A DNA stretch of 64,000 nucleotides from Verrucomicrobiota bacterium (GTDB taxonomy: Bacteria > Verrucomicrobiota > Verrucomicrobiia > Limisphaerales > UBA8199), in contig PSRM01000182.1 of the NCBI GenBank assembly GCA_003176045.1, forward strand, positions 1 to 64,000, read 5' to 3'. Made by a program: the position numbers and the translations under genes. This document shows, one piece after another, positions 44,771 to 61,881 of the stretch; position 1 is the first letter of the stretch; every line of letters starts with the position of its first letter. The notes under the pieces are model-generated. The model searched no databases and had not been told where the DNA came from. It worked only from the letters and a program-made list of their open reading frames with translations.

Positions 44771-45310
44771 ATTTTAGATTTAGTCATTTTAGATTTTAGA
44801 TTTACCGAAAAAGCCCGGGTCGGCTTCTTGCATCCAATCCAAAAACCAAAATCTTCAATGTAAATTAGCCTTTGCCGTGTTCAGTGAACTGCTGAAGATG
44901 GCACAAAGCTCGTCCGCTTCTTTCCATAGCGGCTGAATTCGAGCAGGTTTCATGAGGCCGCTTTCCATTAGGACCTCCAGCCAGAAGGCGCTCTCGTCGG
45001 CTTCCTCAAGCACGGTCCCCATCTTGGCAATGAAATCCGCCTTTGATTTCGCACGGCAAACGGCGCGATAATTGGCGCCTACGGACGAACCAGCTTTCAT
45101 TAGCTGATTCCCGATTACCTTTCCCGGCTCATTCCTCGGCAAGGCAAGCACGAGCTTGATAATTCGCAGTGCAAACTTCTTCGTTCTGGCTTTCATCTCT
45201 GTCTCATTCATAGGTTTTTTCATTTTGGATGTTGGATTTTCTGCTCGCTAGCAAATCGCTAAACGCAGTTCTTTTTTCAATCTAAAATCTAAAATCTGCA
45301 ATCTAAAATC
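44771..45310. mobile_element. Putative IVS-like cassette: S23 four-helix-bundle gene between inverted heptamer arrays (copy A)
   Basis: Left arm attttagatttagtcattttagattttagattta (44771-44804); right arm aatctaaaatctaaaatctgcaatctaaaatc (45279-45310), near-perfect reverse complement. Confidence 0.5.
44855..45223 (-). CDS. Four-helix-bundle protein, S23/IVP family
   Basis: RTKKFALRIIKLVLALPRNEPGKVIGNQLMKAGSSVGANYRAVCRAKSKADFIAKMGTVLEEADESAFWLEVLMESGL: S23 family pattern. Confidence 0.92.
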   Translation of the reverse strand: MKKPMNETEMKARTKKFALRIIKLVLALPRNEPGKVIGNQLMKAGSSVGANYRAVCRAKSKADFIAKMGTVLEEADESAFWLEVLMESGLMKPARIQPLWKEADELCAIFSSSLNTAKANLH

Positions 45311-47515
45311 CTATCTCCCCTGCCTCAGTCTGGCCACTATCGCGAGCTGGGCGTTGGCGTCGTTGGTGCGGCCTTTGGTGAGGAGGGCGTAGGCCAGATT
45401 CTCGCGGGCGGAGAGGTCGGTGGGGGCCAAATCCACCGCGATCCGGAGCTGATCAATGGCATCGTCCACGCGCCCAGCCGTGCCCAGGGCGATGCCGAGG
45501 TTGCGATGCGCGCCGGCAAAGTTGGGCATGAGTTTGACGGCTTGTTCTGAGTGATAAATGGACTCGTTAAGGCGGCCCTTCCGGAACAAGGCCAGGCCGA
45601 GGTTGCCGTGCGCGAGGGCGTAATCCGGGTCGGCGTCCACGGCGGCCTGGTATTCGCGGATGGCGTCGTCTTCGAGTTGGGAGATTTGGCTGCGCAACCG
45701 GGCTTGTTCGGCGGGGGCAAGTGTTTTAGGCAGGAGAAGCCTGAAAGAGACAGCTTTTTGGTTGAGTTCGGCGGCGAGATTTTGGTGGGCGAGCGCATTG
45801 TCGCGGGTGACGGCGATGGCGTGGCCATAGAGCCTAAAGGTGTCGTGCCAGACCTGTACCTGGCCGCGTGAGAGCACACAGCAGACGGAAAGAGCCGCGA
45901 CAGCGAGAGCCCCGGGCGTGAAACGTGAAACGTAAAAGGGGAAAGGGGAAACGCGATGCGCCGAAGGATGCTGCGGGCCAGCAGAACCTTGAACTTTGAA
46001 CCTTGAACCTCGAACTTTGAACTCAGCAAAAGTCCAAACGACGGCGATAAATATCCCAATAAGCGGTATATAAGTGTAGCGATCGGCGTGGGCCTGGGCT
46101 CCGACCTGAAGCAGGCCGATGACTGGCAGGAGGGTGATAATGTACCAGAGCCAGCCGACGGCAGACCACGGACCACATACCGCAGTCCAAAGGCCTCGAT
46201 CATACGCTAACGGCGACCCCTGAACCTTGAACCTTGAACCTTGAACTTTGAACAGGATCCAAAAGGCCGCAATGGTCAGAAGCAGCCCAACCAAGCCGAA
46301 GGCGATTGTGAGCAAGAGAGAGAAGGTTTTTGGGTAGCTGTAAAAGACGGCGAGGCGCGCGGGCCACACGGTCTGGAAGAGGTACTCGAGGTAAGAGTGG
46401 ATGGCGTTTTCGAAGCGATAGAGGACGGAATAACGGGCGCCGGTTTGAAGCGCGCCGGCTTGTTTCTGGGCGATGATGGTGACGATGCCGGCAGCGAAAG
46501 AAAGGGCGAAGAAGGGAAGCTTCTCTAAAACGAGACCACTGACCACTGACCACTGACCACCCCGCCAGCGCGGTTCTGAGCAAGAACTTTGAACCTTAAG
46601 CCTTGAACCTTGAACTTTGAGCTGACTTTCGGGCGCTGGGGGATCGAAACCTTGGACTTTGGACTTCTTGTCCGCCGAAGCTTTAGCGAAGGTGGAGGGA
46701 CTTTGGACTCGGTTGAGCGGCCAAAAATCCAGCAGTAAAAGCACGAGTGGAAGAGTGACAAGCATGGTTTTGCACATCAGGCCGAGGGTGAAGAGTAAAA
46801 GGGCGCTGAGGTACCAGAGCAAAGGCCTCTGAAACTGGCGAATTAGGAGAAAACCTTGAACCTTGAACTTTGAACCTTGAACTTTGAACTCGCTCCATCG
46901 CCCTTCGCCGCTCGCCACACAGTTCGAATATGCAAGCACAGTCAGAAGGAAGAACAACGTGGAGAGCGTGTCCTTCCGTTCGGCCGCCCATGCAACGGAC
47001 TCGACGTGGAGGGGGTGGACCGCGAAAAAGGCGGCCACAAAAAAGGCAGGCCACGGCGGAGATGGAATGATGGAATGGTGGAATGATGGAATAGCGGATG
47101 AAAGCTGAAGGAGGAGGAAGAAGAGTAATAGCGTGTTGCCGGCATGGAGCACGAGACTGGTGAGATGGTGGCCCCAGGCGGCCTGGCCGAAGAGTTGGCA
47201 ATCGGTCATAATCGACAGCCAGGTGATGGGGTGCCAGAATCCACCTTGGAGAGTAGTAAACGCCCAGCGGAGATTGTCCCACGCAAGCCCGCTCAAGACG
47301 TGGGGATTGCGGTAAATGTAGGTGGGGTCGTCGTAATTGACGAAGCCATTTCGGAACAGGGGCCAAAAAGTGCCGGCGGTCAGGAGCAACAGCAACAAAG
47401 CGAGGATCAGAGGATGCCCATCGCGGAACGGCTTCAAAAGCGACTTCAAAACGAGGGAGAGTTTAGCAGAAGCAGGAAACCGCGAAATGCGCGAAATACG
47501 CGGAACTGGAGACAC
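45311..47515 (-). CDS. Multi-TM protein with C-terminal tetratricopeptide repeats (PMT-like plus TPR)
   Basis: NYDDPTYIYRNPHVLSGLAWDNLRWAFT, AFFAVHPLHVESVAWAAERKDTLSTLFFLLTVLAY; C-terminal TPRs (DPDYALAHGNLGLALFRKGRLNESIYHSEQAVKLMPNFAGAHRNLGIAL). N-terminus uncertain. Confidence 0.88.
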   Translation of the reverse strand: MSPVPRISRISRFPASAKLSLVLKSLLKPFRDGHPLILALLLLLLTAGTFWPLFRNGFVNYDDPTYIYRNPHVLSGLAWDNLRWAFTTLQGGFWHPITWLSIMTDCQLFGQAAWGHHLTSLVLHAGNTLLLFFLLLQLSSAIPSFHHSIIPSPPWPAFFVAAFFAVHPLHVESVAWAAERKDTLSTLFFLLTVLAYSNCVASGEGRWSEFKVQGSKFKVQGFLLIRQFQRPLLWYLSALLLFTLGLMCKTMLVTLPLVLLLLDFWPLNRVQSPSTFAKASADKKSKVQGFDPPAPESQLKVQGSRLKVQSSCSEPRWRGGQWSVVSGLVLEKLPFFALSFAAGIVTIIAQKQAGALQTGARYSVLYRFENAIHSYLEYLFQTVWPARLAVFYSYPKTFSLLLTIAFGLVGLLLTIAAFWILFKVQGSRFKVQGSPLAYDRGLWTAVCGPWSAVGWLWYIITLLPVIGLLQVGAQAHADRYTYIPLIGIFIAVVWTFAEFKVRGSRFKVQGSAGPQHPSAHRVSPFPFYVSRFTPGALAVAALSVCCVLSRGQVQVWHDTFRLYGHAIAVTRDNALAHQNLAAELNQKAVSFRLLLPKTLAPAEQARLRSQISQLEDDAIREYQAAVDADPDYALAHGNLGLALFRKGRLNESIYHSEQAVKLMPNFAGAHRNLGIALGTAGRVDDAIDQLRIAVDLAPTDLSARENLAYALLTKGRTNDANAQLAIVARLRQGR
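45985..46022. repeat. Heptamer array in TPR-protein gene
   Basis: aaccttgaactttgaaccttgaacctcgaactttgaac; encodes [13 protein letters not shown]. Confidence 0.92.
46222..46253. repeat. Heptamer array in TPR-protein gene
   Basis: gaaccttgaaccttgaaccttgaactttgaac; encodes [13 protein letters not shown]. Confidence 0.92.
46534..46560. repeat. (gaccact)4 heptamer array in TPR-protein gene
   Basis: gaccact gaccact gaccact gaccac; encodes GGQWSVVSGLV. Confidence 0.95.
46852..46890. repeat. Heptamer array in TPR-protein gene
   Basis: aaccttgaaccttgaactttgaaccttgaactttgaact; encodes [13 protein letters not shown]. Confidence 0.92.
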
Positions 47516-53461: not shown

Positions 53462-53465
53462 GGGG

Positions 53466-53500
53466 AATTTATGATTTATGAATTATGATTTATGATTTTT
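53466..53500. repeat. (atttatg)n array 3' of solute-binding-protein gene
   Basis: aatttatgatttatgaattatgatttatgattttt. Confidence 0.85.
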
Positions 53501-53548
53501 GTAAACAAAAAGGGGTTGGTGGTTGGTGTTTGCAAAGTGATTGCTCCT

Positions 53549-54682
53549 TCATCGCAAGAAAATCTCGTTGAGTTTGGTCGTGGTGGAATCCAAATCGCGC
53601 AGGAGCGCGGGCCAATCAGGGGTGAGCGTTGGCGCGGCGGCGTCTTGGAGTGCGCCAGTCCTCTGGCGCTTTTGTTTCGCTTCGGAACTCTCAGCCAAAG
53701 CGCTCCCGATAGATCGGGAGCGCACTCCAAAAGCTTCGCCAGTCTGGCCGCTCAAGTCCTCCAAAGCGCCGACTGATACAAGGCCCTGCACGATCTTCGG
53801 CTGTTGAAGGTAATCGAACAGGCGCCGGGCGGAATCGGGATGCGGAGCGTTGCGGACGAGGGCGACGGTGTTTGGGATGAGCAAGGTTTCTGAAGTGATG
53901 GGCAGCGGGATTATCGGTAAGCCGTTATGTTGGCCTTCGGCGATGTCATCGGAATCTGTGAGGCCGATCCAGGCTTCGCCACGTCCGACCAACTTTACGA
54001 CCACGGAGTTGCCGTCCACAAGGAAGGGTTTATTCGCAGCTAGTGCGCGGCACCAGGTTTGCCAGGACTGGTCGCCCCAAAGCTGTCGCAAAGCATGAAA
54101 ATGGGTGGCGGTGGTGCCGAATTGAGGATAGGCAAGGGCCACTTTACCGCGCCAGGCGGTGTTGGTGAGTTCCAGCAGTGAGTGCGGGGCTGAAGCGAGA
54201 GACAGATGGTTTGTGTTGATGACAATCCGGCGGCTGCGATGGCCGAAGGCAGCCCAACCGTCCGGAGCGCGGACAGCCTTGTCCGCGCCGGGAATGCCAA
54301 AGATATTCTGCGCCGCCAATTGCCGGGTCCGCATTTCTTCGTTGCCCCAAAAGACGTCGCATTGCGGATGATTGCGCTCGGCGAGCAGGCGATTGGCCAA
54401 GCCCACGGTTTTTACAGCTTCGTTATCATAGACGGCACGGACCTTGATGCCGGTTTCCTTTTCGAAGTCCTGGAAGATGGGTTCCGCATAAACCTGGTCC
54501 TGGGCGCAGTAGGCGATGACGAAGCCAGATCCCATTGAGAAGCTGACCAGCGAGAGAACAAGAGTAAGCACGATTACCAAACCAACGCCGATAATAAGTC
54601 CCCAGAAAGACGTCATCTCTCGTTGAGTGAATTCATCTTTCGGCCAGTTATAATCTTTAGCTTGGTTCTCCTGTTGGCTCAT
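53549..54682 (-). CDS. Extracellular solute-binding protein (Fe3+/thiamine-type ABC transporter), membrane-anchored
   Basis: N-terminal TM, then VYAEPIFQDFEKETGIKVRAVYDNEAVKTVGLANRLLAERNHPQCDVFWGNEE; located upstream of the permease in the same orientation. Confidence 0.88.
   Translation of the reverse strand: MSQQENQAKDYNWPKDEFTQREMTSFWGLIIGVGLVIVLTLVLSLVSFSMGSGFVIAYCAQDQVYAEPIFQDFEKETGIKVRAVYDNEAVKTVGLANRLLAERNHPQCDVFWGNEEMRTRQLAAQNIFGIPGADKAVRAPDGWAAFGHRSRRIVINTNHLSLASAPHSLLELTNTAWRGKVALAYPQFGTTATHFHALRQLWGDQSWQTWCRALAANKPFLVDGNSVVVKLVGRGEAWIGLTDSDDIAEGQHNGLPIIPLPITSETLLIPNTVALVRNAPHPDSARRLFDYLQQPKIVQGLVSVGALEDLSGQTGEAFGVRSRSIGSALAESSEAKQKRQRTGALQDAAAPTLTPDWPALLRDLDSTTTKLNEIFLR
53636..53742. 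repeat. Palindromic element (cttggagtgcg family) inside SBP coding region
   Basis: gcggcgtcttggagtgcgccag ... gggagcgcactccaaaagcttcgcc; same core as 29111-29270. Confidence 0.85.
54267..54288. repeat. 22-bp palindrome inside SBP gene
   Basis: gcgcggaca-gcct-tgtccgcgc; exact reverse complement of the purL 22-mer. Confidence 0.9.
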
Positions 54683-54741
54683 TTCGCCGAAATTGCAAAT
54701 TGAAAATTGACCGGACCGAGCCGTGTGGCGGCACGCTGAAA

Positions 54742-54908
54742 GTAGCCGTGGGCTTCAGCCCACGGATAGATGGACCAAATCGCCGGAGCGTCGCGGAGCG
54801 ACGCTTGAAAATGCGGGTATGCGGTCAGCGGGAAGAACGCTTCAAGCGTCGCTAACGCGACGCAAAAATCCTCCTCCGTCCCGTACCGTGGGCTCAAGCC
54901 CACGGCTA
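54742..54908. repeat. Nested palindromic element
   Basis: Outer gtagccgtgggcttcagcccacgg/ccgtgggctcaagcccacggctac; inner gcgtcgcggagcgacgcttgaa/ttcaagcgtcgctaacgcgacgc. Confidence 0.9.
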
Positions 54909-54956
54909 CCTTCACGCCATCGCTACGCGATGCCACCATACGGCCTCTCCGCTCGT

Positions 54957-54981
54957 AAATCATAAATCATAAATCATAAAT
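54957..54981. repeat. (atcataa)n array 5' of solute-binding-protein gene
   Basis: aaatcataaatcataaatcataaat; reverse complement of the 53466-53500 array. Confidence 0.88.
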
Positions 54982-54986
54982 TCCGC

Positions 54987-57880: not shown

Positions 57881-57990
57881 GCTCTTAATCTTTTCTCTTA
57901 CTCTTAATCTTAATCTTAATCTACGAAGTCACGAGTTTTACGCAGGAAAGGATTAAGATTAAGAGAAAGATTAAGATTAAGAATCTACGG
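57881..57990. repeat. Inverted hexamer arrays (cttaat / attaag)
   Basis: cttaatcttttctcttactcttaatcttaatcttaatctacg ... ggattaagattaagagaaagattaagattaagaatctacg. Confidence 0.88.
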
Positions 57991-58022: not shown

Positions 58023-58069
58023 CCCATTTAACTCATTTAACCTATTTAACTTATTTAACTTATTTAACT
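58023..58069. repeat. (atttaactt)n array overlapping MoxR stop codon
   Basis: cccatttaactcatttaacctatttaacttatttaacttatttaact. Confidence 0.88.
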
Positions 58070-59065
58070 AGTCAGTACCGCCGCATCTCGGGGCACATCC
58101 TTCAGCACCTGCGCGATGATATGATCGGTCGTGATCCCCTCAGCTTCGGCTTCGAAGTTGAGAATAAGCCGGTGGCGCAGGGCGGAAGGAGCGACGGCTT
58201 CGATATCATCAAAGCTGACGTTGAACCGGCCATCAATCAGGGCGCGGACTTTGCCGGCCAGGATAAGGGTTTGGGCGCCGCGCGGGCTGCTGCCGAAGCG
58301 CAGGTATTGCGAGGCGATTGGAGCGGCGGTGTCCGTGCGCGGATGTGTGGCCAGAACCAGGCGCACGGCGTAATCTTTCACGTGCGAGGCAACCGGCACT
58401 TCGCGCACCAGGTCCATCAACTGCATAAGCGTGCCCCCGTCGAGCACTTTGCTGACCTGCGCCCGCACACCGGCAGTGGTGCGTGTGAGCACTTCGGTCA
58501 ACTCCTCCGCGTTTGGGTAGCCAACCAGGATTTTGAAAAAGAAACGGTCCAATTGTGCTTCGGGTAACGGATAAGTGCCTTCCTGATCAATAGGATTCTG
58601 CGTGGCCATCACGAAGAAAGGCTCGGCCAGTTTGCGCAATTCACCGCCGGCAGTGACCTGATGCTCCTGCATGGCTTCGAGCAACGCAGACTGGGTTTTC
58701 GGGGTGGCACGATTGATTTCGTCGGACAAAACCAAGTGGGCAAAAATGGGGCCGCGTTGAAACTGGAACTCGCGCCTGCCACCGGGGATTTCCATTACTA
58801 TGTTCGTGCCGAGAATGTCCGCAGGCATGAGATCCGGCGTGAACTGAATGCGGCTAAAGGACAGGTCGAGCACTTCGCTGAGCGTCCGAATCAAAAGCGT
58901 TTTACCCAGGCCCGGCACGCCTTCGAGCAGCACATGCCCGCCGGCAAACAGCGCGATGAGCGTCCCTTCGACAATTCCCTCGTGGCCAACAATCACTTTG
59001 CCGATTTCAGATCGGAGAGTTGCGTAAGCGGTGCGGAAGGATTGGATTTGTTCTTCAGTAGTCAT
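58064..59065 (-). CDS. MoxR family AAA+ ATPase
   Basis: GKVIVGHEGIVEGTLIALFAGGHVLLEGVPGLGKTLLIRTLSEVLDLSFSRIQFTPDLMPADILGTN; start at MTTEEQIQ (59065) preferred. Confidence 0.95.
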   Translation of the reverse strand: MTTEEQIQSFRTAYATLRSEIGKVIVGHEGIVEGTLIALFAGGHVLLEGVPGLGKTLLIRTLSEVLDLSFSRIQFTPDLMPADILGTNIVMEIPGGRREFQFQRGPIFAHLVLSDEINRATPKTQSALLEAMQEHQVTAGGELRKLAEPFFVMATQNPIDQEGTYPLPEAQLDRFFFKILVGYPNAEELTEVLTRTTAGVRAQVSKVLDGGTLMQLMDLVREVPVASHVKDYAVRLVLATHPRTDTAAPIASQYLRFGSSPRGAQTLILAGKVRALIDGRFNVSFDDIEAVAPSALRHRLILNFEAEAEGITTDHIIAQVLKDVPRDAAVLTS

Positions 59066-59079
59066 TTGCGCCGGCGGCC

Positions 59080-59714
59080 GTTGAAGGTTGAAAGTTAAAA
59101 GTTGAAGGTTGGTCAACCGTTACCGTTGGCGTGAAAGGCGCCTGGCATTCGTTCGAACCCTTTCCAGATAGTCTATGAACTTAGCTATTCGACGTGACAG
59201 GGTCAGGCATGATTCACGCAGCGCCTCGAATTTTTTCTGGTCAATGTACTGCTGGTCTAGTGCAACGTAGAGTTGGGATCGGACTTCGCCATTTGAACCT
59301 TTGGCGATGTTCAGGAAATGAATGAATTCTTTGCGAGTCCCGCGTTCGAAGCCCTCTGCGATGTTCGACATGGTCGAAGTGGAGGCGCGGATAATTTGAT
59401 CTTTCAGCGTGAAATCGCGACGAAATAATCGCTCCTTCGTTATGTCGTAAATACGGTTTACTAAAACGCGCGCTTCCTGCCAAACCTTCAGATCTTCGAA
59501 TTGTTTTGCCGTAGCCATAGATTTTTATCCTCGTTAAATGTTTGTCGTATTTGTCGTATTTGTTCAGTAGGAGTGAATGAAATGAGTGTTGAATTTGCAA
59601 TCTTAAGTTTATTCAACCAAGCCATTAACCTGCCTTCAGCCAAGAGGCGTTTGCGCAGACCTCAGACTCGACAAACGGAATGAACCTTCAACCTGTAACC
59701 TTCAACTTTCAACT
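59080..59714. mobile_element. Putative IVS-like cassette: S23 four-helix-bundle gene between inverted heptamer arrays (copy B)
   Basis: Left arm gttgaaggttgaaagttaaaagttgaaggttg (59080-59111); right arm aaccttcaacctgtaaccttcaactttcaact (59683-59714), near-perfect reverse complement. Confidence 0.5.
59120..59518 (-). CDS. Four-helix-bundle protein, S23/IVP family
   Basis: KQFEDLKVWQEARVLVNRIYDITKERLFRRDFTLKDQIIRASTSTMSNIAEGFERGTRKEFIHFLNIAKGSNGEVRSQLYVALDQQYI: classic S23 pattern. Confidence 0.95.
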   Translation of the reverse strand: MATAKQFEDLKVWQEARVLVNRIYDITKERLFRRDFTLKDQIIRASTSTMSNIAEGFERGTRKEFIHFLNIAKGSNGEVRSQLYVALDQQYIDQKKFEALRESCLTLSRRIAKFIDYLERVRTNARRLSRQR

Positions 59715-59717
59715 AGA

Positions 59718-61687
59718 TCATTTTTTCAAATCATCAAAGTAGTCCTTCACCGCTCCCTGATATGCTCGCGGCACTTTCTCCTCGGTCAGCGCACTCTGGG
59801 CGTCGGACTGGGCGGCGGCGGCCGCTTCCTCGTAAGCGATATTGCTCTGGCCTTTGATGCTCACGCCACGCAAGGTGATGCTCGGCATGGGCGCGCCTGG
59901 CGAGAACTGGCCTTTGACCTTGGTCGGCATGAGTTTGTCGGTGGGGCTGGTTGGGCGGTCGGTGTGGCCGCGTGGGTCAACATTCGGGCGCACGGCGCCG
60001 GTATTGTCCCAGGCATCATTCTGGACTCCGTCCCACGTGTGGCCTTCTTCGGCCCATGTGCCGACGCCGCCACCCAGCCCGCTGCCTTTGGTTGGACCGC
60101 TGCCCGGGTTATTGCACTGCCCCCAGCCTTTGCACTCGCTGATGCACATGGCCGCCTTATTCATGGCATCGAGCGTGGCCATCAATTCCTGGGCGTCACC
60201 CATTTGCTGAGCGAGTTCTCCCAATTTTTTGGCTGCAGAAGCGAGTGACTGCGCGGCACCCGATTTGTCGCCGGCCTGGCCTTGCTTGCAGGCCTGCTGC
60301 AGGTCCTTCGCCACGTCGCCATAATGGCCCGCAGGTGGAATGGCTTTTGAAACTTCCTCCATCATTTTCTGCAGTTGCTCCTGGGTAAGGCCCGAAGACT
60401 TTAATTGTTCCACCATCTTGGTCAGAGTCTGCTGGGCCTGCTCGGGCTGCCCTTTTTGTAGTTGCTCGGCCAGGTCCTTGCCCAACTTGTCCATTTGCTG
60501 TTGGAGCTGTTGGAGGGACTTGGCCATGTCCTTCATCTTATCGAGGTCCTTAACGGCAGTCTGAATATCCTTGAGAAACTGGTCGGGCTGACTGTTCTCC
60601 AGGGCCTTGATGGCGTCCTCCAACTGCGGCATTTGCATCCCCATCTGTTGCGCTTCCTTCGACAGAGCGGAAAGGGCTTCTGAAAGTTTTTGTTTCTCGC
60701 CCTCGCCGGCGGCGGCGCCTTTATCGGCCAAGTCTTTGGCGGCTTGTTGAACCTTTTGCAGGTCCTTTTTGAGTTTGTCGAGCGCTTCGGGATTACCGGT
60801 AGGAGAGCCAAGCTGCTTCTGTAGCGATTCAATTTGCTTTTGCAATCCGCCGGCGGTTTGAGTGTCGTTCGGGCTTGTGCCACGGGCTGCCTGTTCGAGT
60901 TTGTTGAGGGCCGGATCTTTGGCCATTTCCTTGATCTGCTCCTTCAGCTTCTCAGCCACATTCGCCAGGTCTTTGAGCGCCTCGGTTCGGGTGAGGGAAG
61001 TTTTGGTGAACCGGTCGCCCAACTCGCCGACTGCCTGCATGGCTTTCTGAGTCGGCGGCAGGGCCGTCGGGCGCTTCTCGATGTCGCGCCGCACGAGTTC
61101 GGCCAGATTTTTGCCCGCTTCTTTGATTGATTTCTGTTCCTTTTGTTTTTGCAGGTAGCTCTTGCTGCGATACTCCGGGACAAAACCCAGCCCAACACAC
61201 AGCGCCAGCAACAGAAATGCCCAACGCGCCGCGCCCGGCAGACTCAACGGGAGCAGCTTTCTGGGATCCAGAGCTTTGGAATGTGCCGCGGCATCCGTGA
61301 CCACCAGGTCGCTCCATCCTGATGGAGCGCGGACAGCCTGTCCGTGCGCACCGCTGGCTGGGCCAGCTTCCTCGGCGGCAATCTCCAACGCCGTGCTCAA
61401 CCGCTCCTTTAGCTGTTGCTTGTTATCCACCCAACGGGCCACTTCTTTTAACGATGGTTTTCGCCACCCTCCTACGATCAAGCCAAAGGCCATCGCGACA
61501 AACGGCGCGACCAATGCAGCCACAGGCACCCAAAGCGGCAGCGGCCACAAATGAAATGCCCCCGCCATCAGTAGCGCGGCGAGCGCCCCAAAGAGCAACC
61601 CCTTCCACATCCCTTGCAACGCCTTCGCCCATCGCCGCCGCCGTCCGGCCCGACGGAGTGCCAATTCAATAGTTTGTAACTCGCTCA
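59718..61687 (-). CDS. DUF4175-like membrane-anchored coiled-coil protein
   Basis: N-terminal TMs, long Gln/Lys-rich coiled coil (LQQLQQQMDKLGKDLAEQLQKGQPEQAQQTLTKMVEQLKSSGL); start at MSELQT (61687) preferred. Confidence 0.78.
61327..61345. repeat. gcgcggaca-type palindrome inside DUF4175-like gene
   Basis: gcgcggaca-gcc-tgtccgtgc, preceded by gctccat-cctg-atggagc; encodes SGAHGQAVRAPSGW. Confidence 0.85.
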
Positions 61688-61881
61688 TAAATACTCCCTC
61701 AATCCGGCTCTTAATCTTTCTCTTAATCCTAATCTTAATCCCTCCCACAAAACTGCGCCATCCACCTCCATTTGGCTAGTGCTAATTCATTTGACCGCGG
61801 AAGCGCCAAAATGTTCCGCGGATTTGCGCCCTTAGCCGGAATAATTTTCCCGGCTGATAGTCCCCTGCGCCAGACGGCCCA

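Follow-up and report, generated by a model that had tools for sequence, protein, structure and literature searches.

S23 genes between inverted heptamer arrays as probable mobile cassettes at bacterial operon junctions

A 64,000-nucleotide stretch of contig PSRM01000182.1 from a Verrucomicrobiota bacterium (assembly GCA_003176045.1), hereafter the window, contains a gene for an S23 (four helix bundle) protein enclosed by two short inverted arrays of tandem heptamers. We conclude that such S23 genes and their arms very likely form discrete mobile cassettes, with mobility inferred from their distribution and no transposition observed. The reading that we favour, and hold to be somewhat more likely than not, is that the window locus is one copy of a widespread transcript-embedded mobile element, in which the S23 gene lies within inverted arms, the stem formed by these arms is probably cut by RNase III and the protein probably recognizes its own repeat unit; RNA processing and transposition are unproven. 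The processing and recognition steps deserve less confidence than the existence of discrete mobile cassettes.

The S23 (23S_rRNA_IVP) gene of this locus, cassette B (59120-59518), matches PF05635 with E=8.6e-36 and is also matched by TIGR02436. Its inverted arms (59080-59110 and 59683-59713) are 31 nt long, 87% complementary and 572 nt apart, the left arm having a period of 7 and 4.6 copies. Read in the sense of the S23 gene, the upstream gene (59718-61748) ends with its stop codon, and after 3 nt there follow the 5' array, a leader, the S23 gene, the 3' array, 14 nt and the moxR start codon. The inverted-flank score of the locus is 21, against a median of 9.0 for control genes of 80-200 aa, 1.4% of which score 19 or more. 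In the predicted fold of the window transcript the two arms of the cassette close the structure; the stability of the whole predicted fold is not above that of shuffles (z -0.94). No gene other than S23 is present inside the cassette, and there is no element-encoded transposase.

Much of this arrangement had been proposed in an initial annotation made from sequence alone. The S23 gene flanked by inverted 7-nt arrays held, and proved general across S23 genes; the gap of 3 nt between the right arm and the preceding gene's stop codon and the moxR neighbour (an AAA_3 ATPase) held as well. The DUF4175-like character of the upstream gene was not confirmed, as no DUF4175 match was obtained for it in Pfam. 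The proposed identity of the locus, a mobile cassette resembling the intervening sequences (IVSs) of rRNA genes and inserted in an mRNA spacer, is supported, with RNA stem processing and transposition not shown. Searches for other identities were negative within their scope: neither the window nor 20 S23 loci sampled across many phyla contained rRNA or, by Rfam, the catalytic RNA of a group I or group II intron. The assembly of the window genome itself gave no 23S rRNA match, which leaves its own 23S rRNA out of the comparison with IVSs. A PADLOC search for a defence family returned no match, and no S23 was found in phage records queried with the window protein.

Table 1. Positions of the two S23 cassettes in the window and of the genes adjoining cassette B.
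Feature	Position	Strand	Remarks
S23 gene of cassette A	44855..45223	-	PF05635 E=8.1e-13
5' arm of cassette A, contiguous with the stop codon of gene 45311-47515	45279..45310	-	
3' arm of cassette A, unit ATTTTAG on the + strand	44771..44803	-	
Whole cassette B (arm, S23 gene, arm)	59080..59714	-	between the upstream gene and moxR
5' arm of cassette B in S23 sense, heptamer array AGTTGAAAGTTGAAGGTTACAGGTTGAAGGTT	59683..59714	-	
S23 / four helix bundle protein gene of cassette B, 132 aa	59120..59518	-	PF05635, TIGR02436
3' arm of cassette B, complementary to the 5' arm, unit GTTGAAR on the + strand	59080..59111	-	
moxR (AAA_3 ATPase), downstream neighbour	58064..59065	-	start codon 59063-59065
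Upstream neighbour gene, C-terminus YFDDLKK	59718..61748	-	

Cassette A, also in the window, has the layout of cassette B with a different unit (ATTTTAG arrays). The TPR-containing gene beside it (45311-47515) keeps a single long frame despite several GAACCTT-type heptamer and other 7- and 8-nt arrays. At 53464-54984, what lies between inverted ATTTATG arrays is not S23 but a gene for a solute-binding protein (53549-54682) together with a 94-aa ORF, and the same unit makes the arms of another S23 copy in the window genome (L020). Short hairpins of inverted 7-nt and 6-nt arrays without S23 occur at 526-598 and 57896-57982, and might be solo or remnant elements.

The window genome carries 21 S23 hits, and at 17 of these the inverted array arms lie no more than 300 nt away; since two of the 21 rows (L019 and L021) are parts of one gene, the S23 loci number 20. 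Nearly every locus has its own unit (GTTGAAR, GTGTCAC, AGAGGAC, GTTAAATGA, AAACACC, GTGAAAC, TCTTAA and others), which differs between loci and agrees within a locus. The arms were evaluated on 104 S23 genes, from the window genome and order-level relatives, and on 497 control genes; several of the relatives are incomplete metagenome assemblies. The inverted match between own left and own right arm scored 14 or more in 74% of the S23 genes and 19 or more in 51%, versus 2.2% (at 14 or more) both for control genes and when left arms were combined with right arms from a different locus. The comparison of S23 with control genes, which the initial annotation had put forward as its test, was thereby passed, and the outcome it had named as refuting, S23 genes without arrays in relatives, was met only in a minority, about a quarter of S23 genes (clear arms being absent from ~26% of the 104). 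Of 128 armed elements, 88 have arrays with a period of 7 and 30 have arrays with a period of 8. Arrays have a median length of 32 nt and 4.6 units, copy number on the left correlates with that on the right (rho 0.40), and 5' arms are rich in G (G>C in 63/68).

Two simple origins for the arms were rejected. Chance within a repeat-rich background is contradicted by the control genes and by the armed S23 genes of genomes that are poor in arrays. An element landing in an array that was already there would be flanked by direct, not inverted, arrays, and direct-orientation matches between S23 flanks reach 17%, versus 74% for inverted ones. A more elaborate rival is a mutational by-product, in which slippage and hairpin-templated repair would build and homogenize arrays around any gene of a repeat-prone genome without any element being involved. 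In its favour, arrays are frequent in the window genome (~30 per 100 kb over L029-L048, period 6-9), and copying from arm to arm would explain matched arms without selection on the stem. Against it stand the control genes without such arms, the armed S23 genes of the array-poor relatives G018 (0 per 100 kb) and G036 (1.2 per 100 kb), the density of 183 arrays per 100 kb in the S23 flanks of relatives (S23-free relatives have 1.25), and the recurrence of one element with its arms in new contexts. We regard this explanation as all but excluded. The strongest outlier among the controls, a 150-aa ORF within long inverted repeats with a palindromic core (L043:8087-8539), remains unidentified.

The association extends well beyond the order. 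Scanning GTDB genomes across phyla with a three-sequence S23 profile gave 80 loci and 73 testable S23 genes from more than 12 phyla; arms were present at 51 of the 73, with cross pairs at 4.5%. The phyla sampled include Bacteroidetes, Chloroflexi, Nitrospirae, Acidobacteria, Planctomycetes, Proteobacteria and Verrucomicrobia, although the sample represents mainly the window's own S23 clade because the profile was built from only three sequences. Units in this clade often have a common GTT, GTC or ATT core. When the comparison is confined to loci that have no neighbours in common, arms in the same orientation are more alike the more similar the S23s are (Mantel rho 0.32, against at most 0.10 in permutations), with no comparable trend in the opposite orientation. 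From this tie between S23 type and unit we infer, without binding data and less firmly than we hold the cassettes to be discrete, that the S23 protein likely recognizes its own repeat unit and so helps the element to move or persist. Solo arrays of the window genome match resident S23 arms in 21% of cases; equal arm sets from other genomes match them in 4.7% on average and 13.7% at most (200 samples). Such a resemblance would fit action in trans, which is only a possibility, as base composition was not fully controlled in this comparison.

The cassettes occupy the gap between co-oriented genes almost exactly. Armed elements measure 414-912 nt (median 535), and their outer ends lie close to the neighbouring genes: the median offset is -1 nt between the 5' arm and the end of the upstream gene, and +5 nt between the 3' arm and the start of the downstream gene; single distances are approximate because neighbours were called as mechanical ORFs. 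Between co-directional genes, S23 lies in sense in 54 cases and in antisense in 4 (p=3e-12).

One result counts against an RNA stem: selection for such a stem should give an excess of G-U over A-C mismatches on the sense strand of the arms, and none was seen (164 vs 187). This absence favours a DNA-level hairpin transposon, in which the arms would be folded single-stranded DNA ends, the transposase would act in trans in the style of IS200/IS605 or REP/RAYT, and S23 would be a passenger or accessory. Also on its side are the existence of array hairpins without S23 (the two in the window and one at L145) and the sharing of units between solo arrays and resident S23 arms. It is opposed by the strong sense bias (54:4) and the tight fit to operon junctions, by an S23 type that tracks the arm unit, by the free variation of the arms in sequence, and by the lack of a transposase in the cassettes. 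On balance we judge it unlikely, and retain the transcript-embedded element as the better account.

The junction between the upstream gene and moxR, compared in 30 genomes, provides both filled and empty sites. It is filled in four genomes of four different families (G000, G049, G014 and, in decayed form, G039). In G001, of the same family as the window genome, stop and start codons overlap with no insert, and in G010, G011 and G012 the spacer is 4-24 nt, compared with ~650 nt in the window. The unit in G049 is of the window's type, and that in G014 is another; exchanging arms between the window and G014 destroyed the match, own scores of 21 and 16 falling to 7.5 and 8.5. The same junction in G036 (L145) holds a GCAGAT-type inverted array hairpin without S23.

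Comparable replacements were found elsewhere. Two duplicated loci of G009 have flanks that are ~90% identical, yet carry different S23 sequences and units at the same place, and swapping their arms lowered the scores from 28.5 and 28.5 to 9.5 and 7.5. In the orthologous elements L081 and L087, arm length differs, and does so on both sides together. At these loci, arms have been replaced or expanded on both sides jointly. Copies sharing one site may descend from an old insertion followed by losses or from repeated insertion. The second check suggested by the initial annotation, presence or absence of the cassette at moxR, was passed, the junction being empty in same-family relatives, and its other refuting outcome did not occur: relatives do carry arms, but without strict conservation.

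A host regulatory module would be retained for a different reason, namely that the hairpin or the S23 protein sets the ratio of upstream to downstream expression. The position between operon genes and long persistence at some junctions, such as moxR in four families, speak for it. Sporadic occurrence (4/30 moxR junctions), the variety of unrelated operons, decay in G039 and presence or absence varying among close plasmids speak against it, and we consider it unlikely.

Those plasmids carry the check for empty sites beyond moxR. At the first Nostoc junction, an element with AGGAGTC arms is present in C052 (pC052_D), N6, ATCC 53789 (pNsp_a) and PCC 73102 (two plasmids), whereas pC052_A, pC052_B, pNsp_b and pNFSY05 have the empty form, stop-GTT/ATT-ATG without insert. 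At a second junction the empty form is an overlapping TAATG, and pNsp_c is filled by a different S23 type with GGGAAAA-like arms. The AGGAGTC-type element also occurs with its arms in unrelated contexts in Aulosira and in Trichormus/Scytonema, three unrelated contexts in all, and there DNA similarity stops at the element ends. No clear target-site duplication was seen at the Nostoc junctions, which are ambiguous as the arm end resembles the flank. The general criterion for a mobile element, the same element in different contexts together with empty sites, is met. Another copy lies in Pseudanabaena between cas6 and cas4; this armed S23 cassette (plasmid, L251:1998-2357) sits in a type I-D CRISPR operon.

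The closest known counterparts are the S23-containing 23S rRNA IVSs of Leptospira, Coxiella, Xanthomonas and Brucella. These measure ~430-700 nt, with complementary ends forming a stem of ~30 bp (PMC4990558). That of Coxiella has an S23 ORF preceded by two or three GACAGAT heptamers and a degenerate one, in varying copy number, and a 28-bp terminal stem; it is excised by RNase III, which cleaves at the first repeat, and the authors of that study point to an older proposal of IVS mobility (PMC4990558). In both forms the S23 ORF runs in sense with the host transcript, complementary ends close a stem, which in the cassettes is a predicted one, and occurrence is sporadic. Unlike rRNA IVSs, the cassettes lie between protein-coding operon genes rather than within 16S or 23S rRNA, and there are many of them per genome, with a unit particular to each copy and arrays at both ends; RNase III excises the rRNA form without ligation, whereas no RNA evidence of such excision exists for the operon cassettes.

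Other repeat systems share fewer features. Like REP/RAYT (TnpA-REP) and MITE-type repeats, the cassettes are small intergenic inverted repeats tied to one protein family, of which solo copies may exist; unlike them, the cassettes enclose the protein gene between the two repeats and differ in unit from one copy to the next. They differ from insertion sequences and DNA transposons in having no element-encoded transposase and no constant terminal inverted repeats, even at duplicated sites, and no library match related S23 to a transposase. Tandem 7-nt arrays in gene spacers are also known from Xanthomonas, Nostoc and Beggiatoaceae: two Xanthomonas genomes have 70 and 75 convergent pairs of intergenic heptamer arrays (PMC4692102), and for TAACTGA arrays a repeat-binding protein was suggested as the mobile part (PMC4679880). 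Neither study mentions S23, whereas arrays of the window type are matched pairs around an S23 gene.

Avd, the accessory protein of diversity-generating retroelements (DGRs), shares the S23 fold, and the window protein is weakly similar to its family (PHROG 3206, E=0.0019). In contrast to DGRs, there is no reverse transcriptase (RT) in the cassettes or anywhere in the assembly. A retroelement moved by RT in trans, with S23 acting in an Avd-like way, would agree with sense insertion in transcripts, with this similarity and with a weak correlation of S23 and RT counts over 58 genomes (rho 0.29). It is opposed by the window genome, which has 21 S23 hits and no RVT_1 match (assembly completeness 86%), and by 13 of the 58 genomes with at least 5 S23 hits and no RT. 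Assemblies are incomplete and cassette copies may predate RT loss; even so, RT as a requirement is unsupported, and we hold this scenario to be very unlikely.

Mechanistically, the transcript-embedded element would consist of an S23 gene and two inverted tandem-repeat arms, mostly of heptamers and ~32 nt each, inserted in sense between co-transcribed genes. In the operon mRNA the arms are predicted to base-pair, leaving the S23 ORF in the loop of the resulting stem. By analogy with the S23-coding IVSs of 23S rRNA, and without RNA data, RNase III would probably cut this stem. We infer that the element can live at operon junctions because a cut between two cistrons spares both reading frames; the mRNA form would then share the life style of the rRNA form, which sits at helices not needing continuity. 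The S23 protein would probably bind its own unit, aiding movement or persistence. Xanthomonas S23 is a homopentameric toroid, and structures 2gsc and 2rld have five chains each; an S23 ring on about five repeats is attractive because the protein is pentameric and arms have a median of 4.6 units, binding data being absent. A bolder reading, which we put forward as a conjecture and hold to be less likely than not, would see S23 proteins as unit-specific repeat-binding rings that spread their own array-bounded cassettes and same-unit solo arrays into transcript junctions, with many specificities coexisting per genome and rRNA IVSs as a special case.

The S23 operon cassette appears likely to be an overlooked kind of bacterial mobile element. 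Its novelty is provisional, since the open-licence PMC literature that we searched contains no description of S23 cassettes at mRNA junctions, which is weak evidence. The finding links three puzzles: S23 proteins, whose function is not known, rRNA intervening sequences, whose origin is unclear, and the heptamer arrays of bacterial intergenic DNA. Natural pairs of filled and empty junctions exist in culturable Nostoc strains, and many genes annotated just as 'four helix bundle protein' may be the cores of a compact mobile element.
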